A stretch of 24,854 nt of DNA from the IMG/VR virus record IMGVR_UViG_3300025910_000033, positions 1 through 24,854 of that record. The stretch is one strand, 5' to 3'. The DNA comes from a virus. Positions 1 to 22,506 of this stretch are shown here, one piece after another (the first letter of the stretch is position 1; each line of letters begins with the position of its first letter). The notes under the pieces are model-generated. The model had not been told where the DNA came from and searched no databases. It saw only the letters and a program-made list of their open reading frames with translations. Both the position numbers and the translations under genes were made by a program.

Positions 1-1
1 C

Positions 2-963: not shown

Positions 964-964
964 C

Positions 965-4962: not shown

Positions 4963-5237
4963 ACGAGGACAAGCTCGGCGAGCAGATTCGTGACGGCCAT
5001 CGCGCCGATCAGGACTTGCAGCTTGTCGGGGCCGCATTCGAGACCTTGAAGGCCGAATACGTCAAGGCATGGGAAGCCACAGCCCTGCGCGACAACGATG
5101 GGCGGGAACGGCTTTGGCAGGCGGTGCAGATCGTCGGCAAGGTCGAAAGCCACCTACGCTCGATCGTCGCCAACGGACGTGTGGCACAAAAGGACGTGGA
5201 CCGCCTGAGGTCCGGCAAGACGGGCTTTTTGGGCTAG
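4959..5237 (+). CDS. Small helical phage protein of unknown function (92 aa)
   Basis: This is a 92-aa, mostly helical soluble protein. The central region (residues 25-70) has a helical heptad-like pattern ([35 protein letters not shown]). It ends [14 protein letters not shown]. Its start overlaps the previous stop as ATGA. Position between portal and head genes suggests a minor head or assembly factor, but no family is recognised. A second, shifted frame (5009-5218 minus) covers part of it but is a codon-bias shadow. Confidence 0.8.
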
Positions 5238-5241
5238 CCCT

Positions 5242-6087: not shown

Positions 6088-6105
6088 TAACAATAGGATG
6101 ATTTT

Positions 6106-7077
6106 ATGAGCGACGCACCGCTGTCACTGGACGGCGCGGCGGCGGCCCTTGCGGCTGCCAGAGAGACCGCCCCCGAGGTGGAACAGGAACAAGCACCCGT
6201 CGTCGAGGCTCCGGCAGAAGCCGTTGAGCCCGAGGCGGTCGAAGAGACCGAAGCGGTCGCCCCAGCTCCCGAGGAGCAGGCGGACGCCGAAGTGGACGCA
6301 ACCGCGGACGAACCGGAACAGCCGGCCATCGAACCGCCAGTGTCCTGGACGAAAGCTGACAAGGAGCTTTTCGCATCCCTCCCGCCCGAAGCGCAGCAAG
6401 TTATTGCCCAGCGCGAGAAGGCACGGGACACGGAAGTCAACCGGACCCAGCAGGAAATCGCCGCCGAACGCAAGGCGCTTGCCGAGCGCGAGGCACTATT
6501 CAGCAACTACGAGCAGGAAAAGCGCACGCTTGAGGACCTCCTGCTTGCCAAGCTTCCCCCCGAGCCGGACCCACGCCTGATCGACACGAACCCGACCGAA
6601 TACTGGCGCCAGAAAGCGCATTTCGACCGGGCCGTCGGCGAACTTCAGGGAATCGTGGCAAGACGCCAGGAGGCCGAAGCAAAGCAGGCGCAGGAAATCG
6701 AAGCGCAGGAGGCCGAGCACCGCAAGGCGGAAGCCGCCGAACTGGTCAAGCTCATCCCGGAACTGAAAGGCGAAAAGGGGCGGGAGATCGCCAGCGAAAT
6801 CGCGACCTATGGGCATTCCCTGGGTTACGACGATGCCACACTCGGCATCGCAAACGCGAACGATCTGCACGTCCTCTACAAAGCCATGAAGTGGGATCGC
6901 GCCCAGGAGGCCGCCCGCGCGGCCAAGACCAAGCCCGTTCCGAAGGTATCAGCGCCAGGCGTTGCCCGGTCCAAGGCCGAGCTCAACGCGGATACGCGCC
7001 GATCCGTGCTCCAGAAGCTGAACTCGAGCGGCACCGTCGAAGACGCGGTTGCCGCACTCCAGGCACTAAGGACTTAA
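6106..7077 (+). CDS. Head scaffolding protein
   Basis: This is an internal scaffold that guides capsid assembly and then leaves the head. The 323-aa protein is highly acidic and low-complexity in residues 20-85 (repeated AVE/EPE/EEQ). Residues 105-245 are a long charged coiled coil (EREALFSNYEQEKRTLEDLL, ARRQEAEAKQAQEIEAQEAE), and the C-terminus is basic (residues 285-323). Acidic start, central coiled coil and basic capsid-binding tail, immediately upstream of the major capsid gene, are typical of phage scaffolds. AGGATG lies about eight bases before the ATG. No protease motif is visible in it. Confidence 0.88.
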   Translation: MSDAPLSLDGAAAALAAARETAPEVEQEQAPVVEAPAEAVEPEAVEETEAVAPAPEEQADAEVDATADEPEQPAIEPPVSWTKADKELFASLPPEAQQVIAQREKARDTEVNRTQQEIAAERKALAEREALFSNYEQEKRTLEDLLLAKLPPEPDPRLIDTNPTEYWRQKAHFDRAVGELQGIVARRQEAEAKQAQEIEAQEAEHRKAEAAELVKLIPELKGEKGREIASEIATYGHSLGYDDATLGIANANDLHVLYKAMKWDRAQEAARAAKTKPVPKVSAPGVARSKAELNADTRRSVLQKLNSSGTVEDAVAALQALRT

Positions 7078-7078
7078 C

Positions 7079-8065
7079 ATGGCACAGCCCACCAACACCT
7101 TCTCGTATTACGACGCCAAGGGCGTCCGCGAGGACCTTTCCGAGCTGATCGACCGCACCGAGCGGGAAGAGACGCCGTTTTACTCCAACATCGGCCGCGG
7201 CAAGGCAACGCAGCGCATCCACGAATGGCAGACCCAGGCGCTTGCCTCTGCCATTGATACCAATGCGGTGATCGAAGGCGACGACGCAACGATGGACGCG
7301 GCAACCGCCACCGTCCGCGTCAACAATCGCACGCAGATCGCCGACAAGACGGCAACCGTTACCGGCTCGGTCGAGGTTTTCGACAAGGCCGGGCGCGCTT
7401 CGGAAATGGACTATCAGGTCATCCTGAAGGGTCTCGAGCTGAAGCGCGACGTCGAATACCAACTGCTGTCGAACAAGGCGTCCGTCGCCGGCACCGACAC
7501 GCAGGCGTCGCAGTCGGGCGGGTTCGCCGCATGGCTGGTGACGAACGTCTCGATGAACACCGCAGCGACCGGCACAGCCGGCGCCAACGGCGGTTTCGCT
7601 TCGTCGACCTCGCTGGTCGCGGCGCGCACCGACGCTTCGGCCACTCGGCAGTTTTCCGAGAGCCACATCAACGATGTGATGGAACTGGCGTTCACCACCG
7701 GTGCGCGTCCGACGGTCATGCAGTTGCCTCCGGGCCTCAAGACCCGCTTCTCGGCGTTCACCGGCATTGCGGAACTGCGCCGCGAAGCGGGCGGCGACGG
7801 GCAGGCGACCATCGTTGGCGGTGCCGACGCCTACATCAGCAACTTCGGCAAGCTGACCGTCGTTCCTTCGCCGTTCATGCGTTCGATCGACGTGGTGCTT
7901 TACGACCCGAAGAAGGTCAAGCTCGCGGTCGCGCGTCCGATGCGAACGTGGGATCTCGCCAAGACCGGCGACACCGAGAAGAAGCAGCTCCTGCTCGAGT
8001 ACACCCTCCAGGTGGACAACGAGAAGGCGCACGCGCTCATCACCGACGTTGCCAAGACCACCTAA
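7079..8065 (+). CDS. Major capsid protein (DUF5309/SU10-type, HK97 fold)
   Basis: This is the shell subunit of the phage head. The 328-aa protein matches the DUF5309-type capsid proteins of SU10-like and related podoviruses. Its opening PTNTFSYYDAKGVREDLSEL is followed by TPFYSNIGRGKATQRIHEWQ and a C-terminal MRTWDLAKTGDTEKKQLLLE. The order scaffold-capsid agrees. AAGGA is seven bases before ATG 7079, a strong site suited to high expression. The gene starts two bases after the scaffold stop and is followed by a strong intrinsic terminator, so the upstream transcript probably ends here. Confidence 0.92.
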   Translation: MAQPTNTFSYYDAKGVREDLSELIDRTEREETPFYSNIGRGKATQRIHEWQTQALASAIDTNAVIEGDDATMDAATATVRVNNRTQIADKTATVTGSVEVFDKAGRASEMDYQVILKGLELKRDVEYQLLSNKASVAGTDTQASQSGGFAAWLVTNVSMNTAATGTAGANGGFASSTSLVAARTDASATRQFSESHINDVMELAFTTGARPTVMQLPPGLKTRFSAFTGIAELRREAGGDGQATIVGGADAYISNFGKLTVVPSPFMRSIDVVLYDPKKVKLAVARPMRTWDLAKTGDTEKKQLLLEYTLQVDNEKAHALITDVAKTT

Positions 8066-8071
8066 AGGACA

Positions 8072-8103
8072 GGGGGCCGGGCTTCGGTTCGGCCCCCGTT
8101 TTT
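8072..8103 (+). terminator. Intrinsic terminator after the capsid gene, UUCG tetraloop
   Basis: GGGGGCCGGGC (8072-8082) pairs with GUUCGGCCCCC (8087-8097, including two G-U pairs) around a UUCG tetraloop (8083-8086), followed by G and five T (8099-8103). It lies seven bases after the capsid stop. This is a textbook Rho-independent terminator and would lower transcription of downstream genes relative to capsid. Confidence 0.93.
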
Positions 8104-8107
8104 GCCC

Positions 8108-8434
8108 ATGACGCTCAAACGCATATTGACCCGCAACTCCCGCACGGGGGTCGAGCGGTGGCTGCACCACGATGGCGAGAAGATCGCCGTCGAGACGCGG
8201 CAGGACGTTGCCCGTGCGCTCGACGCGAACCTGGTCGAGCGCAACGCCTTTGCAGGGTACAAGGACAGCGGCGACCGGCACATGCACAAGGTCGCGCATA
8301 TCCCGGCGGTGGTCATCGACCAGTGGCTTGCGGAGGGGATCGACGTATTCGACCCCGAGCACGCCGACCGCGTGTGGAACAAGCTGAACGATCCCGACTG
8401 GCGCAAGTTGCGCACAACCGAGGGGTGGGTCTAG
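8108..8434 (+). CDS. Small conserved phage protein of unknown function (108 aa)
   Basis: This is a 108-aa protein with basic N-terminus (MTLKRILTRNSRTGVERWL) and central segment GYKDSGDRHMHKVAHIPAVV. It ends in an acidic/aromatic tail (HADRVWNKLNDPDWRKLRTT). Proteins of this size are common between capsid and adaptor genes in related phages, but I cannot assign a role. ATG 8108 lies five bases after the terminator's T-run. No Shine-Dalgarno is visible because the hairpin occupies that space, so it may be poorly translated. A TTG at 8102 would add two residues but falls in the T-run. The next gene follows its TAG directly. Confidence 0.75.
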   Translation: MTLKRILTRNSRTGVERWLHHDGEKIAVETRQDVARALDANLVERNAFAGYKDSGDRHMHKVAHIPAVVIDQWLAEGIDVFDPEHADRVWNKLNDPDWRKLRTTEGWV

Positions 8435-9055
8435 ATGGCGCTGGCCAATTTCTCCGACCTCAAGACCTCGATAGCCGGTTGGCTCGGCCGTTCGGACCTG
8501 ACTTCGGTCATCCCGGATTTCATCACGCTCGCCGAGGCGAGGTTCAACCGCGTTCTGCGCACCCCGGACATGGAAACGGCGGGGACGGTCTCGGCGTCGT
8601 CCGAAAGCACCGCGCTTCCCTCGGGCTTTCTCGAAATGCGCTCGGCATGGCGCGAGGACAGCCCCGACGCGCCGTTGGACTACTTCCCGCCCTCGCACCT
8701 CAGGACCATGCGCGCGGCGGCCCAGAGCGGCACCCCTACGGCCTATACGATAGTCGGCGGGAACATCATCCTCGCGCCTACGCCTGCTGCGACCGAGACC
8801 ATTGGGTTGTATTACTACACCAAAGTCGTGGCGCTTTCCGATTCAGCGACCACGAACTGGCTTTTGACCGCGCACCCCGACCTTTACCTGTTCGCCTCGC
8901 TCGCTGCCGCGGAAGTCTATGGCTGGCACGACGAGCGCCTGCCGTTGCTGAAGGCAGGGGCGGACGAGATCATGGAACAGATCAATGACGCCGGCAAGAA
9001 ACGCCGCGCGGGCGGTGCGCCGCTTCAGCAACGCGCGGCCACGGCCTACCGCTGA
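8435..9055 (+). CDS. Head-tail adaptor protein (SU10 adaptor-like)
   Basis: This would form the ring that docks below the portal and joins the tail. The 206-aa protein starts MALANFSDLKTSIAGWLGR and has the adaptor features FITLAEARFNRVLR (helix near residue 30) and LPSGFLEMRSAW. The insertion YTIVGGNIILAPTP is a typical beta hairpin, and the helical end contains HPDLYLFASLAAAEVYGWHD. These match the phage adaptor family found with DUF5309 capsids. The start follows the previous TAG directly, with GAGGGG upstream. The stop shares one base with the next ATG. Confidence 0.85.
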   Translation: MALANFSDLKTSIAGWLGRSDLTSVIPDFITLAEARFNRVLRTPDMETAGTVSASSESTALPSGFLEMRSAWREDSPDAPLDYFPPSHLRTMRAAAQSGTPTAYTIVGGNIILAPTPAATETIGLYYYTKVVALSDSATTNWLLTAHPDLYLFASLAAAEVYGWHDERLPLLKAGADEIMEQINDAGKKRRAGGAPLQQRAATAYR

Positions 9056-10371
9056 TGACATCCATGCTCTCACTCTCGCTCAGGGTTGACCTGGGCGCCG
9101 TCATCGACAGCTCGGGGGCGCCTTCGCAAGTCCCGGCGATCCTCTCGCCGCCGGAGATTTCCGGTGCGGCGGAGGTCGGCGAAACGCTCGTGGCGACAAG
9201 CGGCCTGTGGTCGAACAGCCCGACGAGCTACGCCTACCAGTGGTACGCGGACGCTGTTGCAATGACCGGGGAGACCGCGAACAGCCTGCTGCTGACCGAG
9301 GCCGAGGAAGGCGCCTTGATCACGGTCGGCGTCGTTGCGACCAACGGGATAGGCGCATCCACCGAATCTGTCAGCGCGGCGGCCGGGCCTGTGGTGTTCG
9401 TTTTCGACATCGCCACTCCGGCTCTCGGCGACAAGTACGTCGACGACGTTCTGGTCCCGGACGAAGACGCGGCGCCGATGTATTCGATCGACTTCGTCCA
9501 GGCATACCCGGACGGCGGCGGGATCGGCGATACCCTGCAGGGCCGCTGGGGCGCCACCGAGGGCGCAGCGGAAGCGTTCACGCCCGAGGATTACGAAGTT
9601 GTCGAGGCGTGGTGGATCGACGCCACCGACCCGATGCCGGACCTGACCACGTTCTGCGAGGCGACCGCCGAAGACGACGTGACGCACTACCAGGTCCGCG
9701 TAAAGCGCGTCGACCAATATTCCGACTGGTCGGCGTTCCGCACGTTCACCCGCGGTGCCGATCCGGCACCCCCTGAAACCGCGTCGACCTTCGAGCCGAC
9801 CACGGGCGCCAACAAGTCGCAGTACGTCACGATCAGCGGCGCGAACCTGATCGCCCGTGGCAACAGCGGCGGGTTCAACGACGCACCGCACTCGGTTCGC
9901 CTGACCCAAAGCCGCACCTCGGGCCTGAGGCAGTGCGCGTTCGGCTTCAGCACGGCGAGCGGCAGCAAGTATTGGCTCGGCATCAGCGACGGGACCGATC
10001 ACTTCGGCGACACTGGAACTACCAACTTCAGCCGGCCGGGCAAGAACAACTCGAGCGGCTATTCGCTGCGGTGGGGCGAGAACGGCTCGGCGTGGGGCAT
10101 CTGGAGCGGCACGTCCGAGGTCCAGAGCGGTACGGTCAGCGGCAACGGCTCTGATCGTTCCGAGTTCGCCATGCGGATCGACTACACCAATGGAACGCTG
10201 TCGTTCTGGCAGAAGCTGTCGGGCACCTGGTCGCAGATCGGCACCACGCTGACCGGGCTCTCGATATCCGGCTACAAGCCCGATGTCGGGTTCGAGAACA
10301 ACGACACCTTCACCTACCTCAACGCGGGCACCAAGACGCTCGACGGCGGGGCGGTGGCGTTCGACAACTAA
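9055..10371 (+). CDS. Ig-like/SPRY-like virion surface protein
   Basis: This is a 438-aa protein of two or three beta domains. Residues about 26-112 form an Ig-like module (PPEISGAAEVGETLVATSG, then SYAYQWYAD) of the kind often found on phage surfaces. Residues about 115-240 form a second, less clear beta domain. Residues about 245-438 resemble a SPRY/lectin-like sandwich (QCAFGFSTASGSKYWLGISD and a late GYKPDVGFENNDTFTYLN). It probably binds a ligand or the host surface as a tail or decoration protein. There is no signal peptide and no tail-fibre motif. Start ATG 9055 overlaps the adaptor stop, and ATG 9064 is an alternative. Role is inferred from domain type only. Confidence 0.72.
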   Translation: MTSMLSLSLRVDLGAVIDSSGAPSQVPAILSPPEISGAAEVGETLVATSGLWSNSPTSYAYQWYADAVAMTGETANSLLLTEAEEGALITVGVVATNGIGASTESVSAAAGPVVFVFDIATPALGDKYVDDVLVPDEDAAPMYSIDFVQAYPDGGGIGDTLQGRWGATEGAAEAFTPEDYEVVEAWWIDATDPMPDLTTFCEATAEDDVTHYQVRVKRVDQYSDWSAFRTFTRGADPAPPETASTFEPTTGANKSQYVTISGANLIARGNSGGFNDAPHSVRLTQSRTSGLRQCAFGFSTASGSKYWLGISDGTDHFGDTGTTNFSRPGKNNSSGYSLRWGENGSAWGIWSGTSEVQSGTVSGNGSDRSEFAMRIDYTNGTLSFWQKLSGTWSQIGTTLTGLSISGYKPDVGFENNDTFTYLNAGTKTLDGGAVAFDN

Positions 10372-10381
10372 GGATTTAGCG

Positions 10382-11887
10382 ATGCGCTTCTTCGCCCGCC
10401 TCCTGGTGGCTTTCTTCGTGGTGGTCTCGGGGCCTGCCTATGCGCAGGCGTGGACGACCGCCGAAGTTACGCCGTCCTGGTCGAGCACGGTCGACTGGTC
10501 CCCCCCGATCACGCCTGACAGCACGCATCCGGCGGATGCCTACGAGCCCGCCGTCGACGACGAGACCGGCTACACGCGCTCGCTATGGATCACGAGCGAG
10601 AACCAGCGGACGCACATTGGCGAGGTCGGCGGCGACGGCAAGTTCCGCACGAACTGCCGGCCGACTTTCATCAAGCGCGGCGATCCCATTCTGTACCGGG
10701 GACAGTACCCGGCGGGCCACGACCACACCTTCTTCGGGCCGATGAATCAATACGTCATCGATCACGTCGACGAGTTCAATTACCAGATGGGCCGCGACTA
10801 CCCCGGCTCGGCCTGCCAGGGCGGCCCGCTCAACACGACGCTCTACTGGGAGCCGTCTGTCAAGGATGCGCGGTACGGCCTCAAGCTGACCGTGATCCCC
10901 GAGATCGCGACGTTCTACTACACGCACGCGGGCGCCGACGGCTCGGTCACGACACGCCTACGCCGGGATTTCCGGTTCATTGGCGGTGCCAACCCAGCGA
11001 ACTACAACGACACTGTACGACGTGCCGAATACGCGGCTGCCAGCCTCGAATACCCCGGCTCGCCCGACACCCCTGCTGGCTTCGGCGGCATCCAGTGCTA
11101 CGTCAGCGATGTTGCACAGACGGTGGTCGGCGATGCGCGGCTCAAGTATCCGACGGGTGCCTACCACACCACCGAGGCTCGCTATCTCAAAGGACCGGCC
11201 GGCGAGGACCCATGGAACGGCGCTTGCACCGCTGGTTACATCATCGTCCAGGTCGAAGCGCAGGATTGTTGGGACGGGACCAATCTCGCCTCGCCCGATG
11301 GACGGAGCCACGTTCGCTATTCATCGCGCGACGAGGACAACGACCCCGGCGGCGGTCAGTGCCCATCGAACTATGTGAGGGTGCTGCGGTTCACGACCAA
11401 GATCCAGTTCAATCACAACGGTTGGACCCAGGACCTCCAATATTGGTACATGTCGAGCGACCGGATGCGCATGGCGACGGCCGAGTGCCCGGACGAAACC
11501 GCGCCATGCGACGGAACCGGCCTGAATACGACGGTCAGCAAGGACCCGTGCCGCGCCATCGGCGTCGACTTCTGCCCGTTCTCGACGGCACATTTCGACT
11601 GGTGGGGCTCGTGGGACACCACGGTTATCGAGAACTGGGAGAAGAACTGCGGCGGCCTGACGATCGGCGGGGTAACGACCAACTATGCCGATTGCGGCTC
11701 AGGCGGGATAGGGACCAACAGCACGATCCAATATAGCGGAACGCCGCCTGAAGCGGGGCTTTCGACGAACCCTGTCGCGACGACAGATGTCGATACGTCC
11801 AGCAACAGCACCGAGGGGCAACGATATTTCGCGATCGTCCCCGGCGATGAAAACCAGGACGCGCTCGAGCTGCATACGCACAGCTAG
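10382..11887 (+). CDS. Secreted DUF1996-type protein with Sec signal peptide
   Basis: This is a 501-aa protein with a clear signal peptide: basic start, hydrophobic core LLVAFFVVVSG (7-17), and probable cleavage after AYA (residue 21). The body shows DUF1996 hallmarks: HDHTFFGP (113-120), CWDGTNLASPDGRSH (296-310), and a late HFDWWGSWD (404-411), plus many Cys. DUF1996 is a domain of unknown function known from fungi and bacteria. Conserved His and Cys suggest metal binding or disulfides, which is inference. AAGGA lies eight bases before ATG 10382. It sits inside the structural block, where an exported product is unusual. An apparent upstream extension at 10283 would lie in the previous gene. 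Confidence 0.82.
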   Translation: MRFFARLLVAFFVVVSGPAYAQAWTTAEVTPSWSSTVDWSPPITPDSTHPADAYEPAVDDETGYTRSLWITSENQRTHIGEVGGDGKFRTNCRPTFIKRGDPILYRGQYPAGHDHTFFGPMNQYVIDHVDEFNYQMGRDYPGSACQGGPLNTTLYWEPSVKDARYGLKLTVIPEIATFYYTHAGADGSVTTRLRRDFRFIGGANPANYNDTVRRAEYAAASLEYPGSPDTPAGFGGIQCYVSDVAQTVVGDARLKYPTGAYHTTEARYLKGPAGEDPWNGACTAGYIIVQVEAQDCWDGTNLASPDGRSHVRYSSRDEDNDPGGGQCPSNYVRVLRFTTKIQFNHNGWTQDLQYWYMSSDRMRMATAECPDETAPCDGTGLNTTVSKDPCRAIGVDFCPFSTAHFDWWGSWDTTVIENWEKNCGGLTIGGVTTNYADCGSGGIGTNSTIQYSGTPPEAGLSTNPVATTDVDTSSNSTEGQRYFAIVPGDENQDALELHTHS

Positions 11888-11973
11888 TCGAAGATCGCGG
11901 CGATCCACGGTTCGACCGGCCGGGGCGGCAGCGGTTCCATAAGCCAGCGGATGATGCGCTTGAGTAAGGCCAT
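11884..11973 (-). CDS. Possible minus-strand mini-ORF, 29-aa amphipathic peptide
   Basis: ATG 11973-11971 opens 29 codons on the minus strand, ending at TAG 11886-11884, which overlaps the plus-gene TAG through the palindrome CTAG. The peptide starts MALLKRIIRWLMEPLPPRPV and ends WIAAIFD. It is cationic, Trp-containing and amphipathic, then Pro-rich. It fills most of the 139-base gap before the next gene. No Shine-Dalgarno is visible, and the open frame extends further upstream to 12069. It may be chance, but its composition is unlike random sequence. Confidence 0.3.
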   Translation of the reverse strand: MALLKRIIRWLMEPLPPRPVEPWIAAIFD

Positions 11974-12026
11974 CTGTCGAAAATACACCAACCCGCGGTA
12001 ATAGCCAACAGGTTTCGGGAGGCCGG

Positions 12027-13472
12027 ATGTATCAGCAATTTGGCCCGCTCGCACCGGACAGGAACCCACGCCTCAACGACAAGTACCTGAGGGTCGCCGA
12101 TGGGGTCTATTCGGCTTCAGACGGCTACAAGCCGGTCGGGCAATGGGCGCAGGTTTACCCCGCGATGGCGGCGGCCCCCAAAGGCGGGGCGTCGTTCGTC
12201 AACCCGCAAGGAAGCGTGGTCATCGTTGCCGGCACCGCGACCACGCTTTACCGGGTACAGGCCGGTAACTGGTTGCAGATTGCCTCGGGCTTTTCGATCC
12301 AGGGCGGCCAGCGCTGGCGGTTCGCACAGTTCGGCGGCATGGGCATCGCCACCAACGCCGCCGATGCGATGCAAAAGATCGACCTCGAGGCGGGGGGTGT
12401 TGGCCCGCTCGGTGGTTCTCCACCGAAATTCGAGGCGCTGGGCGTCGTCAAGGGGTTCCTGATCGGGACCGTGATGGACGGCGACGTGATGACCATCGCC
12501 TGGTCCGGCGCCTTCAACGCGGAGCATTGGGAGTTCGGTTTCAACCAATCCGACTTCTACACGCTGCCCACCGGGGGGCGGGTGAACGGTATTTTGTCGG
12601 GCGAGTTCGGGATCATCCTCCAGCGCAACCGGATCGTGCGGCTGGATTACGTCGGCGGCAACCTCATTTTCGACCCCAACGAGGTCAGTTCCAACATCGG
12701 CTGCGTCACCGTCCATTCGGTAGCCCAGTGGGGCAACCTCGGGTTTTTCTACTCCGATGAGGGGTGGATGATGTGGGACGGCACGCAGCCCGTTCCGATC
12801 GGCAAGGAGTGGATCGACGCCGAGTTCCGCACCGCCTATTCGGTGGCCGATTGGGACCGCATGTCGACCGCCATCGACCCGGTGCGCGGCGTATTGCACG
12901 TTTCGGTGTGGAACGGCTCGTCAGGCGGCAAGCACTACCTGTACGACTGGGGGCTCCGGCGCTGGTCGACGGTCACTTACGCCAGTCCGGTGATCTTCTC
13001 CGGCGTGACCAAGGGCGTATCGCTGGACGAGCAGGACCCGGCGGTAGGCGCCGGAGACGACAACCTCGACGGCGCTTCGCTGCTCAGCCTCGACAGCGCC
13101 ACCTTTCGCGGTGGCGATCCGCGGCTTTACGTGTTCGCCTCCGACTACAAGCTGGGGACGTTTACCGGGACGCCGATGGCGGCCACGCTCACCGGGAACG
13201 ACCTCGAGGTATTCGGCGGACGCCGTGCGAACCTTCGGTTTGTACGTCCTGACATCGACAGCAACAGCGGGATCACCGTCACTATCGGGACAAAGCAACG
13301 GCTGGCCGACTCGCTGAGCTCGGTTGCCTATACAACGATAGAGACCAGCGGGGACATGCCGGTGCGGTCCTCCGGGCGCTATTGCCGGGTTTCGGTGGCA
13401 GTCGCCGCGGGCACGACCTGGGCGCACGCCAAGGGGGTAGAGCTGATAGGGGCGCCGGGAGCGGGCAGGTGA
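12027..13472 (+). CDS. Packaged-DNA stabilisation / tail hub protein (P22 gp10-like)
   Basis: This would plug or extend the portal and tail tube after DNA packaging. The 481-aa protein is beta-rich with propeller-like repeats: NPQGSVVIVAGTATTLYRV, EFGIILQRNRIVRLDYVGG, WGNLGFFYSDEGWMMWDG and HYLYDWGLRRWSTVT. The N-terminal MYQQFGPLAPDRNPRL and the overall size are compatible with the phage stabilisation (gp10) family of P22/epsilon15-like podoviruses. GGGAGG five bases before ATG 12027 is a strong ribosome site. The preceding 139 bases hold only a minus-strand mini-ORF and no clear promoter. The stop overlaps the next GTG (GTGA). Confidence 0.8.
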   Translation: MYQQFGPLAPDRNPRLNDKYLRVADGVYSASDGYKPVGQWAQVYPAMAAAPKGGASFVNPQGSVVIVAGTATTLYRVQAGNWLQIASGFSIQGGQRWRFAQFGGMGIATNAADAMQKIDLEAGGVGPLGGSPPKFEALGVVKGFLIGTVMDGDVMTIAWSGAFNAEHWEFGFNQSDFYTLPTGGRVNGILSGEFGIILQRNRIVRLDYVGGNLIFDPNEVSSNIGCVTVHSVAQWGNLGFFYSDEGWMMWDGTQPVPIGKEWIDAEFRTAYSVADWDRMSTAIDPVRGVLHVSVWNGSSGGKHYLYDWGLRRWSTVTYASPVIFSGVTKGVSLDEQDPAVGAGDDNLDGASLLSLDSATFRGGDPRLYVFASDYKLGTFTGTPMAATLTGNDLEVFGGRRANLRFVRPDIDSNSGITVTIGTKQRLADSLSSVAYTTIETSGDMPVRSSGRYCRVSVAVAAGTTWAHAKGVELIGAPGAGR

Positions 13473-13951
13473 GCGACAGGTTCACTTTCATCGCGGTCAA
13501 GACGACGGCGGATTTCATCGTTCCTGCCACGGCGGCCTCGCAGACCGAGTTCAACCGCAAGGCGGCGAATGCTTTCAAGGGCCTCATAGGCGGCGTTTTG
13601 CGGGTCGGGGATCTACGTGACCGCCCGACACAGGACCCGATCGCCAATCACCTGCTGTGCGACGGGCGGACCATTTCGCGGCTGAATTATCCGGAACTGG
13701 TGTCGCTTCTCGCCGGCTCTGCTGCGACCGAGGCGACCCTGCCCGATTACAGCGGCGCCTTGTCGATCACTGCCCCCACGGTAACACAGGAGGTTACGTC
13801 CGGCGGCACGGTACAGACGGAAGAAACCGCGCCTGTGGACCAGGGCGGAGCGGGCGGGACAGAGGGCGGCAACGTGCCTTCAGGCAGCCGCACCTACGAC
13901 CCGAATTTCCCGTACCCGATTTGGTACAACCCGCCCGAGATCGGCGGATGA
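13469..13951 (+). CDS. Tail-collar-domain protein
   Basis: This 160-aa protein starts at GTG 13469, overlapping the previous TGA. The N-terminus (SDRFTFIAVKTTADFIVP) may attach it to the tail. Residues about 50-95 resemble the phage tail collar domain, with the LLCDGRTISRLNYPELVSLL motif followed by ATLPDYSG. The C-terminus is Gly/Thr/Pro-rich and ends in an aromatic tail NFPYPIWYNPPEIGG. Tail-collar domains are found in short tail fibres and collar proteins. An apparent longer frame from 13382 is inside the previous gene and not used. No receptor-binding domain is visible, so it may be a linker or knob. Confidence 0.75.
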   Translation: MSDRFTFIAVKTTADFIVPATAASQTEFNRKAANAFKGLIGGVLRVGDLRDRPTQDPIANHLLCDGRTISRLNYPELVSLLAGSAATEATLPDYSGALSITAPTVTQEVTSGGTVQTEETAPVDQGGAGGTEGGNVPSGSRTYDPNFPYPIWYNPPEIGG

Positions 13952-14298
13952 CCTACGAGGCATGGCGGGACCGGTTCATGGAAGCGGCAGACGAACATCT
14001 CTACCCGGCGGAATGGCTGGACAAGCGGGTCGAAAGCGGTCGGGCGCAATTCTGGTGCAACGATGCCGGGGCGATCCTCGCCGAGATCAGGCAATACCCG
14101 TCGGGCGTCAAGGAAGTGCACGGGCTGGTCGCGGCGGGCGATCTCGAGGCGATCCGCGCCCTGATCCCGCAAGCGGAACAATGGGGGCGCACGAAGGGCT
14201 GCACCCGCGCAAGCATATCGAGTCACCCGGCATGGGCAAGGCTACTCCGTGACGACGGATATTTGCCGCACCAGCTCACGATAGCCAAGGAAATGTAG
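13948..14298 (+). CDS. GNAT-like phage protein (gp13-type)
   Basis: This 116-aa protein starts at ATG 13948 (ATGA with the previous stop). The sequence runs MTYEAWRDRFMEAADEHLYP, then RAQFWCNDAGAILAEIRQYP, then GDLEAIRALIPQAEQWGRTKGC, ending LLRDDGYLPHQLTIAKEM. The strand-helix order and the 'AWARLLRDDGY' end resemble a reduced GNAT acetyltransferase fold. Similar GNAT-fold proteins occur in virion-protein clusters of T7-like phages (for example gp13), where acetyl transfer is doubtful. The canonical acetyl-CoA loop is not clear, so catalysis is uncertain. Its position before the ejection genes fits a minor virion role. Confidence 0.6.
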   Translation: MTYEAWRDRFMEAADEHLYPAEWLDKRVESGRAQFWCNDAGAILAEIRQYPSGVKEVHGLVAAGDLEAIRALIPQAEQWGRTKGCTRASISSHPAWARLLRDDGYLPHQLTIAKEM

Positions 14299-14300
14299 AG

Positions 14301-14897
14301 ATGGGAATCTCAACGAAGAAGCAGACGACAAAGTCAAACCAGACGATCGCGCCGACGTCGTATGCGCAGCCGTATGTCACGCAGGCGGCGGACACGCTCA
14401 AGCCGGCCTATGACGAGAGCCTTGCCGCCGCACGGTCGTATCAGCCCGGCCTGCTAGGCGCCGCCAACTACTACGGCGACGTGATGGGCGGGAAGTATCT
14501 CGATTCCAATCCCTACATCGACGATATCGTTGGCGCATCCAACGCGGACGCGACGGACGCGGTGAACAGCGCGTTTATGCCGCGCTTCGGCTCGGGCTAC
14601 CACGCCAAGACGCTCGCCCGGACCATCGGCGAAAACACCGCGCGGATCCGGGGCGGGGCTTACGACCAGGAACGGCAATACCAGGACGCCGCGGGCCGCA
14701 ACCTCGCGGGGGTCGCCACGGTGGGCACCGCGCTCCCCGGCATGGCGTCGTCGAACTACGCGCAGAATGTCGGCGGGCTCTTGGGCCGCTACCTGAGCAG
14801 CGACGGGAAACAGACCACCAAGCAGTCGGGCGGGCTTCTCGGCGACTTGCTCGGCGCCGGCCTCGCCGGCTTCGCCACGGGAGGTTTTCGGTTCTGA
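14301..14897 (+). CDS. Probable internal virion / DNA-ejection protein A
   Basis: This is a 198-aa protein rich in Ala, Gly, Gln and Tyr. N-terminal MGISTKKQTTKSNQTIAPTS is followed by helices (YVTQAADTLKPAYDESLAAA), a segment YLDSNPYIDDIVGASNADA and a FMPRFGSGYHAK loop. The C-terminus is Gly-rich and hydrophobic (GGLLGDLLGAGLAGFATGGF, 177-196), which could enter a membrane. This pattern fits small ejection proteins injected with DNA in P22-like phages, in a row with two larger ones. The stop overlaps the next ATG (TGATG). I did not identify a named family. Confidence 0.6.
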   Translation: MGISTKKQTTKSNQTIAPTSYAQPYVTQAADTLKPAYDESLAAARSYQPGLLGAANYYGDVMGGKYLDSNPYIDDIVGASNADATDAVNSAFMPRFGSGYHAKTLARTIGENTARIRGGAYDQERQYQDAAGRNLAGVATVGTALPGMASSNYAQNVGGLLGRYLSSDGKQTTKQSGGLLGDLLGAGLAGFATGGFRF

Positions 14898-15652
14898 TGG
14901 GCTACGGAATTTTCGGACAGCGCCGTCCTGCCAACATCGACCCGCGCTTGGGCCAGGACATCATGCGCGAGATGGGGATTGGCACCCCCCCGACGCCTCC
15001 CAAGGCTGCTCCGCAAGCGAAGCGCGGTCTGTTCGCCCCCGGCGGGACAGGTCGGGCAATCGCCGGCACGATCGGCGACGTTCTGCTTCAGCGCGGCGGG
15101 CTTGCCCCGATTTACGCCCCAACGATGCAGGCTCAGCAGAAGACTCTGCTCGATCAGGCCCAGCGCGATGCCGAACACAACGAATGGATCAGCCGCCAGC
15201 AGTGGGAGCGACAGAACCCGATGCCTTCGACGGCACAGCCGTACCGATGGGAAAGCAACGACGGCGACGTTTACCAGCTTGACCCTAACAACCAGCCGCA
15301 GCGCGTTTTTGATGACCCCACGCCCCGGATGCAGTTCATTCCTGACGGCCTCGGTGGTGGCCAGTGGCTCCCTGTGCCAGGCGCCGCGTCGCAGCAGGCG
15401 TCGCCCGACAGCACTCCGGGCGAAGAGGACGGCTATCGCTACACCCCAGGGCCTGGCGGACGCGCCAATCAGGCCAATTGGAAGCCGGTCGCGAGCAACG
15501 AACAGGGCGGGGCCACGCTCGGGGCCGCCTATCGTTCGCGCTCGATCACGCCGGCCGAGGCGGCAACGATCCGCCAGAGCCTTGGTGCCGGGGGGCAGGC
15601 GGCGTTCGACAAGTGGATGCGCGACAACAACATCACGATCGGGGATCGTTAA
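14897..15652 (+). CDS. Probable internal virion / DNA-ejection protein B
   Basis: This is a 251-aa protein, Pro/Gln/Gly-rich and likely partly disordered. Segment RGLFAPGGTGRAIAGTIGDV with the following helix (LLQRGGLAPIYAPTMQAQQ) is the most ordered part. A Gln-rich helix covers 82-105. The C-terminus has an acidic/hydrophobic helix ending RDNNITIGDR. It belongs to the ejection cluster by position and composition and overlaps the previous gene by one base. No catalytic motif is visible. The next gene begins directly after its TAA. Confidence 0.58.
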   Translation: MGYGIFGQRRPANIDPRLGQDIMREMGIGTPPTPPKAAPQAKRGLFAPGGTGRAIAGTIGDVLLQRGGLAPIYAPTMQAQQKTLLDQAQRDAEHNEWISRQQWERQNPMPSTAQPYRWESNDGDVYQLDPNNQPQRVFDDPTPRMQFIPDGLGGGQWLPVPGAASQQASPDSTPGEEDGYRYTPGPGGRANQANWKPVASNEQGGATLGAAYRSRSITPAEAATIRQSLGAGGQAAFDKWMRDNNITIGDR

Positions 15653-17920
15653 ATGCCCAGACCTTGGGAAAAATACGCGGCGCAACCGGCTGCCAGCCCT
15701 GTTTACGTCCAGCCCAACCCGTCGCGGGTTGCGCGCGAAAGCGCGGAAGAGGGCCGCGCCGAAGAGGCAGGACAGCGTGACGAGGTGCGCACGGGCATCG
15801 CCGCCCGTAGCGAGACGCGGGACATTGGCCTCAAGTTGCGCGACGATTACAACGCGAGCCAGCCGATAAAGGACTATCGTTTGGCATTGCCGATGTTCGT
15901 CCAGGGCCTCAAGACCGCGAACACGCCGCAGGGATCGAACGCGCTCATTTACGCCTACGCGAAGATCATGGACCCCGGCAGCGTTGTACGCGAGACTGAA
16001 GCCGAAGGGGTCGCGAACAGCGATACGATCTTTGGCCGCGCCTACGCCGCTGCGCAAAAGCAGCTTGAAGGAACCGGCACGTTCTCGCCTGAGGCGCGCG
16101 CGGGCCTGATCCGCGAAATGCGCACGAAGATGATCCAGATGGCGCAGGCATACGATGCTGAGCGCGGGCGCTATACGGCCGACGCGCAGGCTTACGGCAT
16201 CGACCCGGAACGCATCATCGGCCCGCACGCCGCGGCCCCGTTCGTCGGAACACTCCAGGAAATCGACCAGCGCGAGGGTCGCCTGACTCCTGAGCAGTTG
16301 CGTAGCTATGATGAGGTCATGGCGGCGAATCCCAACGCTTCGCCTGCCGAGCTGCGCGAGAAGCTGGGCGCCGCCGGGTTGCCGGCCGACCGAATGACCA
16401 ATCTCGATGAGGTTGTGGAAGCCCGCAACAAGGGTCGCGGGACGGCGCCGGCATCGGCCGCGACTTACGAGCAATCGCCCGTCTCGCAAACCATGTCCGG
16501 CGTCAACACCGGCATTGCCAATACCTTCGGCGTGGTCCGTGACATCCCGGACGCATTGCAGACCGGGACAACCAACGCGATCAACTACCTGTTCGGCTCG
16601 GATCTCAAGACGCCGGGCGAAATCAGCGAAATCACCGGGCAGCCTTCGCTCGGCGGCGGCGAATGGTGGCGCAACAAGTTCCGCGACTGGAGCCTGACTG
16701 GCGCGGAACCGACTACCGACGTTGGCCGGTTCCTTCGCCGTGCGGGCGAGTCCGTTGGCGCGGCGGCCGTTCCGGTCGGGGCTGGCGCCGGCACGATGCG
16801 GTCGCTTATCGGCGGGCTTGTCGCCGCTGCCGGCGGCGGGGCCGGGGCTGCGACCGCGAACGAGGTGTTCCCGAATAACCCCGCAGCGGACATGACGGGC
16901 GAGTTTCTCGGGAGCCTCGCGACAGGGCTCCCGTTGGCCGCGGCAGGCCAGGCCGCCAGGCAGCGCGGCATCAACGCCGCCGTCCCCACGGTCGACGATC
17001 TCAAGCGGCAGGCGTCCGGCCTTTACGACGCGGCCGAGCAGCGCGGGGTCGTGGCGGGGCCGACGCAAACGACGCAGCTTGCCGACGACTTCCGGCAGAC
17101 CTTGCGCAACGAAGGACAACTCGGCCCCGCCGGGCGGATCACCGACGCGCCGACTAGCACAAACAAGTCGCTGAACCTCGTCGAACAGTATGAGGGGCGG
17201 CAGATGACGCCCTCTGAAATGGACACGGTCCGCGGCGTTCTCGCAGAAGGCCGGGGCAGTGTCGAAGGGTCAGACCGACGTTTGGCTGGCCTCCTGACCG
17301 ACCAGTTCGACGATTGGGTGCGCCCGATGGCCCCCGAGTTCGATCAGGCGCGCGACGTGGCGAGCCGTTACCTTCAGGCGGAGGATTTGGGCAAGGCGCG
17401 AGAACTTGCCGATGTCGAGGCCAGCAAGTTCACCGGCTCAGGGCTCGAAAACGCGCTGCGCACGCAATTCCGCGGGCTGGACCGCAACGTCGTCAATGAG
17501 CGGAACTGGTTTACTCCCGAAGTGCAGGACGCTATCCGAAAGGTGTCTCGAGGGACGTGGGGGTCCAACCTTGCGCGCGGGCTTGGCAGGATGGCGCCAA
17601 CGGGGCCGGTCTCCGGGGCGCTCGGTATCGGCGCTCCCACTGCGCTGGGAGCCTACCTTGGGGGACCTGTCGGCGCGATGGTGGCCGGCACTGGCGCGGC
17701 CGGGCTCGGCATCGGCGGCAGGATGGCCGCAACGCGCATGGGCGTCAATGCCGCCAACATGGCCGAATTGACAGCGAGGAATGGCGGCGCCGTCGCACGC
17801 GCCCCGTTCCTCGATCCTGAAGCTGAGAGGCTGGCGCTGGCGCTGCTCGCGTCACAGGGCGCCACCGGGCAAGTCAATCCCACTCCGCCCCGCCAGCGCG
17901 GAATGTTCGGCGCCCGCTAA
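15653..17920 (+). CDS. Large internal virion / DNA-ejection protein
   Basis: This 755-aa protein is the largest in the cluster. Residues 1-270 are mostly charged helices (KLRDDYNASQPIKDYRLALP, AGLIREMRTKMIQMAQAYDA). Two glycine/alanine-rich hydrophobic stretches at about 381-402 (SLIGGLVAAAGGGAGAATA) and 655-690 (GAYLGGPVGAMVAGTGAAGL) could cross the host membrane. A helical region lies between them. This suits proteins that leave the virion and form a conduit for DNA entry. No muramidase motif is visible. The very long minus-strand open frame across this gene is a shadow. Its TAA overlaps the stop of a minus-strand mini-gene. Confidence 0.7.
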   Translation: MPRPWEKYAAQPAASPVYVQPNPSRVARESAEEGRAEEAGQRDEVRTGIAARSETRDIGLKLRDDYNASQPIKDYRLALPMFVQGLKTANTPQGSNALIYAYAKIMDPGSVVRETEAEGVANSDTIFGRAYAAAQKQLEGTGTFSPEARAGLIREMRTKMIQMAQAYDAERGRYTADAQAYGIDPERIIGPHAAAPFVGTLQEIDQREGRLTPEQLRSYDEVMAANPNASPAELREKLGAAGLPADRMTNLDEVVEARNKGRGTAPASAATYEQSPVSQTMSGVNTGIANTFGVVRDIPDALQTGTTNAINYLFGSDLKTPGEISEITGQPSLGGGEWWRNKFRDWSLTGAEPTTDVGRFLRRAGESVGAAAVPVGAGAGTMRSLIGGLVAAAGGGAGAATANEVFPNNPAADMTGEFLGSLATGLPLAAAGQAARQRGINAAVPTVDDLKRQASGLYDAAEQRGVVAGPTQTTQLADDFRQTLRNEGQLGPAGRITDAPTSTNKSLNLVEQYEGRQMTPSEMDTVRGVLAEGRGSVEGSDRRLAGLLTDQFDDWVRPMAPEFDQARDVASRYLQAEDLGKARELADVEASKFTGSGLENALRTQFRGLDRNVVNERNWFTPEVQDAIRKVSRGTWGSNLARGLGRMAPTGPVSGALGIGAPTALGAYLGGPVGAMVAGTGAAGLGIGGRMAATRMGVNAANMAELTARNGGAVARAPFLDPEAERLALALLASQGATGQVNPTPPRQRGMFGAR

Positions 17921-19766: not shown

Positions 19767-20006
19767 ATGACGCTGTTTCAGTTCTTCGCGGTCATCGGGA
19801 TCGTCGCGATCGTGTTCATCATGGCCGTGGTGGCCATCAAGCTCATCGACCGCTGCCGCTGCAAGATAGAATCGCAAATACCTGATAACGCACAAAGAAA
19901 GGACATGAATATGGCACGCGTTCCCTCACCTCCCCCGCCTCCTCCTCCGCCCCCGCCCTCCCCGCCGGCAAGTTCGCCTGACCAGGTCCCCAGTGACGAC
20001 GATTGA
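19767..20006 (+). CDS. Small membrane protein with proline-rich tail (79 aa)
   Basis: ATG 19767 follows AAGGAGA at good spacing. A frame-compatible ATG at 19746 is inside the ribosome site and less likely. Residues 4-27 are a strong membrane span (FQFFAVIGIVAIVFIMAVVA), followed by a Cys/Arg patch (DRCRCK), a polar linker, and then a run of ten prolines (SPPPP... about residues 54-64) and an acidic end. It may be a lysis-region membrane protein with a periplasmic or cytosolic proline arm. An internal ATG at 19911 has its own ribosome site (see separate entry). Its stop lies inside the next gene (14-base overlap). No family is recognised. Confidence 0.7.
   Translation: MTLFQFFAVIGIVAIVFIMAVVAIKLIDRCRCKIESQIPDNAQRKDMNMARVPSPPPPPPPPPPSPPASSPDQVPSDDD
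19911..20006 (+). CDS. Possible internal in-frame product: 31-aa polyproline peptide
   Basis: AAAGGA (19898-19903) precedes ATG 19911 at a spacing of seven, and a second ATG at 19905 lies too close to it. Translation from here gives MARVPS, ten Pro, then SPPASSPDQVPSDDD. It is in frame with the membrane protein above, so it would be an alternative shorter product. A polyproline run of this length stalls ribosomes unless EF-P helps, which could affect the overlapping downstream gene. Whether it is used is unproven. Confidence 0.35.
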   Translation: MARVPSPPPPPPPPPPSPPASSPDQVPSDDD

Positions 20007-20412
20007 TGAGGTGTTTCTGGTTTCTGTGCTGTGCGGGTGCCTCTCCGCTTGGAAAGGTAGCCGCACGGCATGGGCCTTGCTGGCGAGTGCGGCAGTTTCC
20101 AGCGGGCTGATTTGGGCGGGCGTGCCGTTCGACATCAAGATTTGGCGGACGATCGACATCCTTGTGGTGGCCTGCATCGCGACAGGCCCTTTGGGGGCGA
20201 AGGACTTGCTGATCCTATCCTTGTTCATCCCGATTTGGTCGCTCTATGAACGACCGTATGCCGGCGACGGCATCAATCTCATCGTCGCCGCGCAACTCGT
20301 CCTGACCCTGCCGTTCGCACGGCTATGGCTGCGGGCTAAGCAGGCAACCATCGCGAGCAAGGACTGGGGCGATTTCGACCTGTTCAGAGCGCTCGCCCGT
20401 GCGCGCGCATGA
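19993..20412 (+). CDS. Multi-pass membrane protein in the lysis region (139 aa)
   Basis: GTG 19993 starts a 139-aa protein with four or five hydrophobic segments: residues 7-19 (VFLVSVLCGCLSA), 27-44 (AWALLASAAVSSGLIWAG), 54-67 (IDILVVACIATGPL), 72-84 (LLILSLFIPIWSL) and 93-112 (GINLIVAAQLVLTLPFARLW). The C-terminus is basic and cytosolic by the positive-inside rule. It overlaps the proline-rich gene by 14 bases and the next gene by four. A GTG at 20011 is an alternative start. It may be a holin-like or antiholin-like protein, but I see no specific signature. Unknown function. Confidence 0.68.
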   Translation: MTTIDEVFLVSVLCGCLSAWKGSRTAWALLASAAVSSGLIWAGVPFDIKIWRTIDILVVACIATGPLGAKDLLILSLFIPIWSLYERPYAGDGINLIVAAQLVLTLPFARLWLRAKQATIASKDWGDFDLFRALARARA

Positions 20413-20792
20413 TACCCGAAGTGACGGCGGCCCTGTCGTGGGGATCGGCCGGCATGGGCGCGGGACTAGGGTTCTTCGCGGTGCGGTGGATCGCGGTGTT
20501 CATCGCGGGCCGGTGGGACCGGCGTGAGGAACAGTTAGACGGCGGCACGCAGCGGCTCATCAAGGGACTGGAAGCGCAAATCTCCAGCCTGACCGGGCGC
20601 ATCATCCAACTGACCGAACGGCTCGATCACGTCGAGTCCGAGCTGAGCGAATGCAAGCGGCTGCACGCGGAAAGCGAGGCGCAGCGGATGCGAGTTGAGG
20701 CGATCCTGCAGGGCTACGGCGACGTGCGCCAGACAGCGCAACTGATCGTGTCAGCCGACAAGGCGGCGGAAAAGGAAAAGCGCGATGACTGA
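20409..20792 (+). CDS. Membrane-anchored coiled-coil protein, lysis region (127 aa)
   Basis: ATG 20409 overlaps the previous stop (ATGA). Residues about 13-34 are a membrane span (SAGMGAGLGFFAVRWIAVFI). Residues 40-100 form a heptad-patterned coiled coil (LIKGLEAQISSLTGRIIQLT). The C-terminus is charged (ADKAAEKEKRDD). An inner-membrane anchor with a long coiled coil is the layout of i-spanins, but a better spanin pair lies further downstream. Its end overlaps an ATG in the string ATGACTGA (20785-20792), the native endolysin start site. No family is recognised. Confidence 0.68.
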   Translation: MIPEVTAALSWGSAGMGAGLGFFAVRWIAVFIAGRWDRREEQLDGGTQRLIKGLEAQISSLTGRIIQLTERLDHVESELSECKRLHAESEAQRMRVEAILQGYGDVRQTAQLIVSADKAAEKEKRDD

Positions 20793-20850
20793 CCGCAAAC
20801 CCATCTTCGTCGCCTTCCGAGACTTCATGGGCGGCCTACCCCCGCTTGGG
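20785..20850 (+). pseudogene. Orphaned 5' end of the endolysin gene, cut by HNH insertion
   Basis: AAGGA eight bases upstream and the overlap ATGACTGA with the previous stop mark a genuine native start. The first 21 codons (MTDRKPIFVAFRDFMGGLPPL) align without gaps to the start of the intact endolysin at 21488, with identical M1, K5, G17, P19 and L21. After about 20838 the sequence becomes antisense HNH gene. The plus-strand frame stays open to TGA 21493-21495, giving a formal 236-aa ORF that is mostly antisense to the HNH gene. I regard it as a remnant, although its reading could still couple to the endolysin. The right edge of the remnant is approximate. Confidence 0.7.
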
Positions 20851-21465
20851 ATAAAGCAGTTCGCCGGCGTCGATGATCGACTGCTTATCGAGCCTGCGGC
20901 GTTGCCTTCTGTGGGTCAGCGCGGAGTGGGAAATACCGGTCGCCTCAGCCAGTTCATGGACCGAAAGAATCCGCCCCTTGTAGGCGATTTTGATAGAATC
21001 TCGCCGGTTGGCCCGTTGCGCTACTTTATCTGCCCATCGGCAATTCCCGGCGCTGTAGTCCGCATTGGTATCTATGCGATCCAGCGAGTGCGAGGAACTG
21101 GGCCGCGGCCCCATGTCCTTATAAAACGTATCAAAATCTTTCAGCCATCGAGTGCAAACCCGGATGCCTCTACCTCCGTAATCCGCGAATTGCTTAAAGT
21201 TCGGGTTGTAGCAGCGCGTCTTCATGTCAACCCAGACTCCGTATTCCGGAGTTTTTCGGTTGGGCTTAGCCAAATTGTTCTTCGGCCATTCGGCTCGAAG
21301 GCAACCGCAACTATTGGCTCGTCCCCGGCGCAAATTGCCGCTGAAGGAAATGGTGCGCGCTCCACAATCGCACACGCACAGCCATCGCGAATGGCTGCCC
21401 TTGTTAGGCGCCCTGGCCACAACTTGCAGGCGCCCGAAGCGCTGGCCCGTGAGATCAATAGCCAT
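20836..21465 (-). CDS. HNH homing endonuclease
   Basis: This is a free-standing DNA endonuclease that would spread its own gene by cutting alleles lacking it. The 209-aa protein (ATG 21465-21463) has an N-terminal zinc-ribbon-like part (C30-x-C32-x-C34, then C53-x-C55: SCGCLRAE). The middle region reads YGVWVDMKTRCYNPNFKQF and YGGRGIRVCTRW. The HNH core is H126-S-L-D-R-I-D to N141 (SLDRIDTNADYSAGNCRWA), and a C-terminal helix-turn-helix (VHELAEATGISHSALTHR, 169-186) follows. The start lacks a ribosome site and lies only 22 bases from the divergent endolysin ATG. A longer frame to 21837 is antisense to the endolysin and not credible. Composition differs from neighbours, indicating transfer. 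Confidence 0.88.
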   Translation of the reverse strand: MAIDLTGQRFGRLQVVARAPNKGSHSRWLCVCDCGARTISFSGNLRRGRANSCGCLRAEWPKNNLAKPNRKTPEYGVWVDMKTRCYNPNFKQFADYGGRGIRVCTRWLKDFDTFYKDMGPRPSSSHSLDRIDTNADYSAGNCRWADKVAQRANRRDSIKIAYKGRILSVHELAEATGISHSALTHRRQRRRLDKQSIIDAGELLYPKRG

Positions 21466-21487
21466 AATCAAAGTAGTAGTGTATTCG
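20836..21487. mobile_element. HNH homing-endonuclease insertion in the endolysin 5' region
   Basis: The segment between the orphan endolysin start and the functional one is clearly more A/T-rich than its flanks and holds only the minus-strand HNH gene. No inverted repeats, target duplications or intron-like structure were noted. The 5' ends of the endolysin on either side are homologous in protein but differ in DNA, which fits insertion with co-converted flanking sequence. The relaxed base composition extends to about 21590, inside the endolysin. Edges are approximate. Confidence 0.7.
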
Positions 21488-22177
21488 ATGATTGAGGTCA
21501 AGACAAAACTGTTTGATCGCATCAGGTTAATCGCTGGGCGACCCCTGCTGCAATCAGAAGTTGATGCAATCAACGCGATCCTAGATGGCTCGCCCGAAGG
21601 CATCGTGCACAAGCTGGTGAACCCGCCGGCTTTCTTCGATGCCGTGCGCTCCGGCTTCCACAAGCTAACCGTGCCGCAAGTCGAGGGATTCGAAACGCTC
21701 CTCGCGGCCTTCGGGGTCGCTGGTTGGGGCGCAGGCTGGGTCGCCAACGCGCTCGCGACCGCCTGGCTGGAAACCAATGAGACGATGAAGCCGGTGCGCG
21801 AGGCGTACTGGCTGAGCGAGGAATGGCGCAAACGCAACCTGCGCTACTACCCTTGGTACGGTCGCGGTTACGTGCAGCTCACGTGGGAAAAGAACTACAC
21901 CCGCGCGGACACGGAACTTGGCCTTGGCGGCAAGCTGCTCGCCGCGCCTGACCTCGCGATGGAACCTGCCAACGCCGCGCGCATCATGGTCGCCGGTATG
22001 TCCGAGGGATGGTTCACCGGCAAGAAGCTCTCCGACTACATCCCCGCGGGCGGCGAGGGCGCTGCCGATCAGCACAAGCAGGCCCGCCGCATCATCAACG
22101 GAACTGATCGTTGGGACGACCTCACGGCATTCGCGATGAAGTTCCAGGACGCACTTGAAGCGGGGAAATGGGCATGA
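21488..22177 (+). CDS. Endolysin, GH19-like glycoside hydrolase
   Basis: This cleaves peptidoglycan glycan strands at lysis. The 229-aa protein carries GH19 features: the catalytic-Glu region AWLETNETMKPVREAYW (93-108), then WYGRGYVQLTWEKNYTRA (123-140), a long loop and RRIINGTDRW (200-209). There is no signal peptide or membrane span, so export needs a holin. ATG 21488 overlaps an upstream plus-strand stop in ATGATTGA, copying the ATGACTGA of the orphan start. No Shine-Dalgarno is visible, so coupling is the likeliest route. A GTG at 21479 is an alternative. The first ~30 codons are A/T-richer than the rest and belong to the transferred segment. Confidence 0.88.
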   Translation: MIEVKTKLFDRIRLIAGRPLLQSEVDAINAILDGSPEGIVHKLVNPPAFFDAVRSGFHKLTVPQVEGFETLLAAFGVAGWGAGWVANALATAWLETNETMKPVREAYWLSEEWRKRNLRYYPWYGRGYVQLTWEKNYTRADTELGLGGKLLAAPDLAMEPANAARIMVAGMSEGWFTGKKLSDYIPAGGEGAADQHKQARRIINGTDRWDDLTAFAMKFQDALEAGKWA

Positions 22178-22506
22178 CCAGCGGCGCCTTCTTCAACGCA
22201 CTGCGCGGCATTACCGGCGAGTTCGAGCTCAACCGGATTGTCGGCGCGTTGGGGGGCACGGCCTACGTCGTCGGGGCGCATGTGTTCATCGCATGGGAAC
22301 TGGTGCTCGGCCGCTCATTCGACCTCGCCACCTACTGTGTAGCATTTCCTGCCGGCCTCGGTGTGGTGGTCGGCTCGATTGCTGGCGCGGTCGCCATCAA
22401 GGACCGCAACGTCGCGAAGGCCAAGGCCACCGAAGCCGAGACGAGTGCGACGAACGCCAACACTGCCGACCAGGTCGCTGCGACTGAAAGAGCTGCGGGT
22501 GTCTGA
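22174..22506 (+). CDS. Holin candidate
   Basis: This is a 110-aa membrane protein with two predicted spans, roughly residues 22-46 (IVGALGGTAYVVGAHVFIAW) and 50-75 (LATYCVAFPAGLGVVVGSIA). A charged C-terminal tail (KDRNVAKAKATEAE) follows. Small size, two spans, charged tail and position directly after the endolysin fit a holin, which would permeabilise the inner membrane. ATG 22174 overlaps the endolysin stop (ATGA) with GGGG eight bases before. ATG 22168 is too close to the ribosome site. The stop overlaps the next GTG by eight bases. Confidence 0.72.
   Translation: MTSGAFFNALRGITGEFELNRIVGALGGTAYVVGAHVFIAWELVLGRSFDLATYCVAFPAGLGVVVGSIAGAVAIKDRNVAKAKATEAETSATNANTADQVAATERAAGV

Follow-up and report, generated by a model that had tools for sequence, protein, structure and literature searches.

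Organization of the lysis cassette

The DNA analysed here, referred to as the window, is a virus record of 24,854 bases, and the locus under study is covered by this one contig. The plus strand of its lysis cassette carries a gene for a coiled-coil protein of 127 amino acids (20409..20792), with a homologue at the same place in the related contig L302 (32% identity, E 3.6e-8). The stop of this gene overlaps by 8 nt the ATG, at 20785, of a 17-codon stub (MTDRKPIFVAFRDFMGG; 20785..20835, plus strand), whose match to a lysin module profile, SD and GC3 of 0.82 mark it as the native start of the lysin gene. At codon 18, the frame of the stub meets the stop codon of an HNH endonuclease gene on the minus strand (20836..21465, 209 aa). 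An AT-rich spacer of 22 bp (21466..21487, GC 0.32) follows, with the divergent start codons of the HNH gene and the lysin on either side. The lysin itself is an intact endolysin gene of 229 codons on the plus strand (21488..22177), recognized by its open reading frame, its profile matches, its predicted fold and its similarity to the lysin of L302 (58% identity over residues 13-229). The next gene of the cassette (22168..22506, plus strand) is homologous to the gene 3' of the lysin in L303 (50% identity, E 6e-19). The native-looking lysin start, the minus-strand HNH gene and the intact GH19-like lysin described in the earlier note are therefore all present.

Between 20300 and 22300, no sigma-70-like promoter was found, and there was no Rfam match up to E 1 to a group I intron or any other known RNA element. 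Positions 1-17062 of the window are matched at 100% identity by a second assembly of this virus (record G001/L154, 19,932 bases), which ends before the lysis cassette, so that the insertion is not confirmable from it. Elsewhere in the window, a gene with a collagen-like Gly-X-Y repeat (5242-6087) lies between a small gene at 4959 and a gene at 6106, and a short open reading frame with a proline run at its end (19830-20006, PSPPPPPPPPPPSPPASSP) is found just 5' of the lysis cassette; a similar proline run also lies 5' of the cassette in contig L376.

The HNH gene and the lysin

The HNH protein matches PHROG 374 over residues 2-183, that is, over most of its length (E 1.8e-65). Its 209 amino acids compare with the 209 and 210 of the free-standing relatives BcepMigl gp14 and phiAH14a p82, and the C-terminal ends coincide. 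The gene is thus complete and encodes a predicted endonuclease. In Sphingomonadaceae genomes its relatives are located at other genes, except for one near a GH19 lysin. In a sphingomonad prophage (L298:3057-6168), a GH19 lysin related to that of the window is followed, about 2 kb further 3', by an HNH relative that contains an internal stop. In a Devosia prophage (L194:2450-3666), a sense-oriented HNH gene immediately precedes a GH19 lysin.

The assignment of the lysin to GH19 draws on a match to Pfam PF00182 that is under the cut-off (E 1.6e-4) and on a match to the PHROG 181 endolysins (E 4.7e-24). The GH19 residues E95 and E105 are among the columns that are invariant across 20 relatives. 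The best matches among solved structures are phage endolysins and GH19 chitinases, all of them weak (E 0.008 or worse). The AlphaFold model of the whole protein has a pLDDT of 91.9.

Relatives without the HNH gene

Four relatives without an HNH gene at the lysin start (L302, L303, L304 and L305) came from an alignment-based scan, and a fifth (L002) was already known. In all five, a single gene encodes two successive modules followed by the GH19 domain. In L302 and L303, the lysin start and the gene before it share 4 nt; in L304, L305 and L002, the lysin begins at the end of that gene or close to it. Since the lysins of these relatives start where the stub is found, next to neighbours homologous to those of the window (the preceding gene in L302, the following gene in L303), the stub occupies the native lysin start position. 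Neither two adjacent lysins nor the MIEVK start, the arrangements that the earlier note had set against its own replacement model, occurs in any of the five.

The lysins of these relatives are 50-58% identical to that of the window; neither a donor nor a near-identical sister phage free of the HNH gene was found. More distant relatives hold the second module only, and the nearest relative by MCP that has a lysis cassette (G005) has, in the corresponding position, a GH19 lysin with one module and is too distant to date the event. A search by the gene preceding the stub (20409-20792) gave no match. Shortly 3' of the lysin of the HNH-free relative L302 lies a second type of homing-endonuclease-like gene (L302:4000-4578, IPGFPRYQVSNNGRVYS...NRLSNLRWASRSDN), and the lysis cassette may be a hot spot for genes of this kind.

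The stub and its module family

A pattern search followed by a profile defined an N-terminal module of Sphingomonadaceae lysins (M.RKPIFD.VR.LLGRGF.QSEVDALD.AID), with strong matches in about 65 of 250 Sphingomonadaceae genomes. This module mostly precedes GH24 lysozymes, and in L256/L259 it precedes a GH19-like domain. A profile built from 31 of these modules gives the stub 13.6 bits, a value exceeded by none of 20,000 shuffles, and the first module of the window's lysin 35.1 bits. The second module reaches 3.5 bits with this profile and 52.6 bits with a profile of GH19-lysin modules. Individual lysin starts resemble the stub as well: 9 of 17 residues are identical in L221, 8 of 17 in the intact GH19 lysin of L304, and 7 of 17 in L234, each match being unequalled in 2,000 shuffles. 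L304 and L234 are independent cases; L221 was found via a pattern derived from the stub and is not. The likeness stops at G16, adjoining the HNH stop codon. An SD-like AAGGA (20772-20776) lies 5' of the stub ATG, with an SD energy of -5.8. A pattern search of viral contigs with the stub start returned one match, to a large unrelated protein, which was set aside as chance.

A direct comparison of the two starts gives a different picture. The earlier note had aligned stub and new start without gaps, but the 5 identities in 21 positions are what chance would produce (p = 0.66), and the register given by the module family is offset by one residue, with F8, R12 and G16 of the stub corresponding to F9, R13 and G17 of the new start. 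Nor does the similarity of the DNA at the proposed crossover hold up: more than one random comparison in three yields 9 matches in 11 positions, and CTACCCCCGCT is complementary to the end of the HNH gene, its last codons and stop. As both are no better than chance, neither the start alignment nor the junction DNA counts as evidence. Because the direct similarity is not significant, the homology of stub and new start rests on their shared family, and the two sequences are related only through it. By inference only, the module type points to a host among the Sphingomonadales.

A foreign block ending within the lysin gene

GC3 falls from 0.82 in the stub to 0.55 in the HNH gene and 0.53 in the first 34 codons of the lysin. 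It is back at 0.81 in the second module of the lysin, with 0.79 for the GH19 domain, the genes on both flanks being at about 0.8. The new 5' end (21488..21589) is a complete N-terminal module, modelled as a two-helix hairpin (helices at residues 2-16 and 22-32), and its GC of 0.48, against 0.64, is below that of all 5,814 coding segments of the same length (102 bases). The extension of the insert's low G+C into the beginning of the lysin, reported in the earlier note, is thus borne out for the first 33 codons or so. In the five relatives the total GC of the first module stays within about 5 points of that of the rest of the gene, versus 16 in the window; the GC3 of this module is somewhat reduced in L302 and L002 too, by less than in the window.

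A change-point fit on GC places the right edge of the foreign block, and with it the right-hand recombination boundary, at 21587 (90% interval 21529..21648), in the linker 5' of the second module. In the lysin model, residues 35-37 are the sole segment below a pLDDT of 50 and lie between two helical hairpins, and the boundary therefore falls at a module border. Beyond it, the second module and the GH19 domain (21620..22177) have a GC3 of about 0.80, as in the remainder of the phage. The HNH gene and the new lysin 5' end share a foreign composition, and the stub and the remainder of the lysin have that of the phage.

Recurrence of the layout in other contigs

The layout of the window recurs in three other contigs, at other lysins in L374 and L376 and at a tail gene in L393. 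The first two came from a scan by HNH alignment and a neighbourhood search in which the sole criterion was a lysin adjoining the HNH gene. In L374, the stub MK is followed by an antisense HNH gene and the lysin MYTKKPIFDAVRLMLKRGF...; in L376, the stub MT is followed by an antisense HNH gene and MKGRTGLFDAIRPFAP..., which has a GH24 domain. These stubs, of two codons each, are too short for similarity testing. In L393, the stub MAVTV lies directly 3' of the preceding gene, and an antisense HNH gene separates it from the restored tail gene MAVVVYRSTDPSAP... (start MAVVVYRS...), relatives of which start with MTVRVYSS and MTVRFYSS. L393 was picked out by its open antisense frame. Four more candidates (contigs L416, L402, L375 and L085) were not accepted on inspection.

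The open antisense frame

In all four loci (the window, L374, L376 and L393), the frame of the stub continues antisense through the HNH gene, in phase with its codons; L393, having been chosen on this feature, is not independent in this respect. In the window, the frame is open from the stub ATG across the HNH gene (20785..21495, plus strand), and its TGA (21493-21495) lies over the new lysin start, whose ATG at 21488 is without an SD (-1.5 kcal/mol, versus -5.8 at the stub). The corresponding stop overlaps the ATG at 3636 in L376, lies 17 nt past the restored ATG in L393, and lies 47 nt before the lysin ATG in L374.

Across the three lysin cases, third-position composition predicts about 13-15 in-phase stops, and 1 is observed (Poisson 4e-6 to 2e-5; rank test 4e-4). 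The window is unremarkable by itself, with a 27% chance of an open frame under phage codon usage. When 8 antisense HNH genes were compared with 49 sense ones, a general avoidance of in-phase antisense stops by the former did not reach significance (p = 0.28); it is the lysin-start cases that show the depletion. An open antisense frame ending over the new start suggests translational coupling, as a lead and not as proof. In a further contig (L430:2926-3564, reverse complement), an antisense HNH gene overlaps the 3' end of a long upstream gene, and the open antisense frame stops where the next gene starts, at 3564, the upstream gene being in a different frame.

Probable chimeric origin of the lysin

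The explanation we favour, with a probability of about 0.8, is that the HNH gene entered the 5' end of the lysin together with some 33 codons of a relative's lysin, that the first 17 codons of the recipient were left behind as the stub, and that the present lysin is a chimera of a donor 5' end and a recipient 3' part. It is preferred because the HNH-free relatives have a single lysin gene, stub and new start belong to the same module family, the composition delimits a foreign block, the full-length HNH gene ends at the junction, the boundary falls in a flexible linker, and the layout recurs. The proposal of the earlier note, that the endonuclease arrived with flanking DNA from a relative, separating the old start and supplying a new one, is in this respect supported by the relatives, the composition and the recurrence.

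By analogy with known homing systems, the HNH enzyme would cut alleles that lack the insertion, at a site around codon 17 in the N-terminal module. Repair of the break from a donor bearing the HNH gene would then co-convert the flanking lysin 5' end. The new 5' end would no longer be a target, so that the lysin gene would be both rescued and protected. We infer the cleavage, the direction of homing, the resistance of the chimera and the donor from this analogy.

An improbable alternative is that the whole lysin arrived with the HNH gene, the stub being the remnant of a different lysin, for instance of the GH24 type, that has been lost. The module type of the stub is indeed commonest in front of GH24 lysozymes, and no sister phage fixes what the original gene was. 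Past lysin codon 33 or so, however, GC3 jumps from 0.53 to 0.8-0.9, the phage's own value, the HNH-free relatives have a lysin of the same module-module-GH19 build in the same cassette, and a GH19 lysin, that of L304, starts like the stub. It is far less probable that the HNH gene inserted alone and that a local duplication of the lysin's own start restored the 5' end, which diverged later: this would dispense with a donor and is backed by no result, and it conflicts with the lack of direct similarity between the two starts and with a new start that has the composition of the HNH gene and not that of the phage. Free-standing phage endonuclease genes are usually intergenic (PMC2988022), but an ordinary intergenic HNH gene next to a chance ORF start is the least credible reading, given a stub that matches the module family beyond every shuffle, is preceded by a good SD and occupies the position where the native lysin starts.

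Comparison with known systems and significance

Replacement of a gene end by homing is known from the WHO elements at FBA1 in Torulaspora and Lachancea yeasts, where the 3' end of the target gene is replaced by means of an intein-derived nuclease with a zinc finger, whose cutting of the target has been demonstrated (PMC7282813). As in the window, the endonuclease gene has a chimeric target gene of full length on one side and, on the other, what is left of the recipient's own gene end, and one end of the target gene has been replaced by a foreign copy, visible in the window as foreign GC and GC3 up to about 21587 and native values after it. In the window, by contrast, the 5' end is replaced, the predicted nuclease is of the HNH type, and the genome is that of a phage instead of a yeast. 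The element of the window thus resembles WHO by function but, with a different gene end replaced and a nuclease of a different family, is not a member of it.

Mobile ORFs of fungal mitochondria likewise bring foreign C-terminal gene ends, as in atp6 of Allomyces and atp6, atp9, cox2 and nad3 of Glomus (PMC3630166). Here too an endonuclease ORF comes with an in-frame foreign end of the host gene, and the old end is kept wholly or partly as a remnant; these cases differ in concerning the 3' end, LAGLIDADG or GIY-YIG nucleases and organelle genomes. For phage homing endonucleases, co-conversion of flanking DNA is established, for example for SegG, and split genes are found with mobE in nrdA of Aeh1 and mobA in gene 60 of T4 (PMC2988022). 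The window shares with these T4-type systems a free-standing phage endonuclease, the co-conversion proposed here and insertion into a coding gene. Their insertions, however, leave a split gene or lie between genes, whereas the lysin of the window is whole again through its imported 5' end and the old start persists as a stub. A limited search of the literature found no phage case of 5'-end replacement.

We tentatively raise, as a possibility with the odds against it, a class of phage homing elements in which an antisense HNH gene replaces the 5' end of its target and keeps its antisense strand free of in-phase stops, such that ribosomes from the old start would cross the insert and re-initiate at the new one, and the operon would survive. 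The open antisense frame is a candidate answer to the question of how the gene 3' of such an insertion stays expressed. Gene-end replacement by homing elements is documented in yeast and in fungal mitochondria, at the 3' end in the cases cited. A 5'-end version in phages, at lysin and tail genes, would show homing endonucleases entering essential genes without an intron or intein, and would also show how the N-terminal modules of lysins get shuffled.
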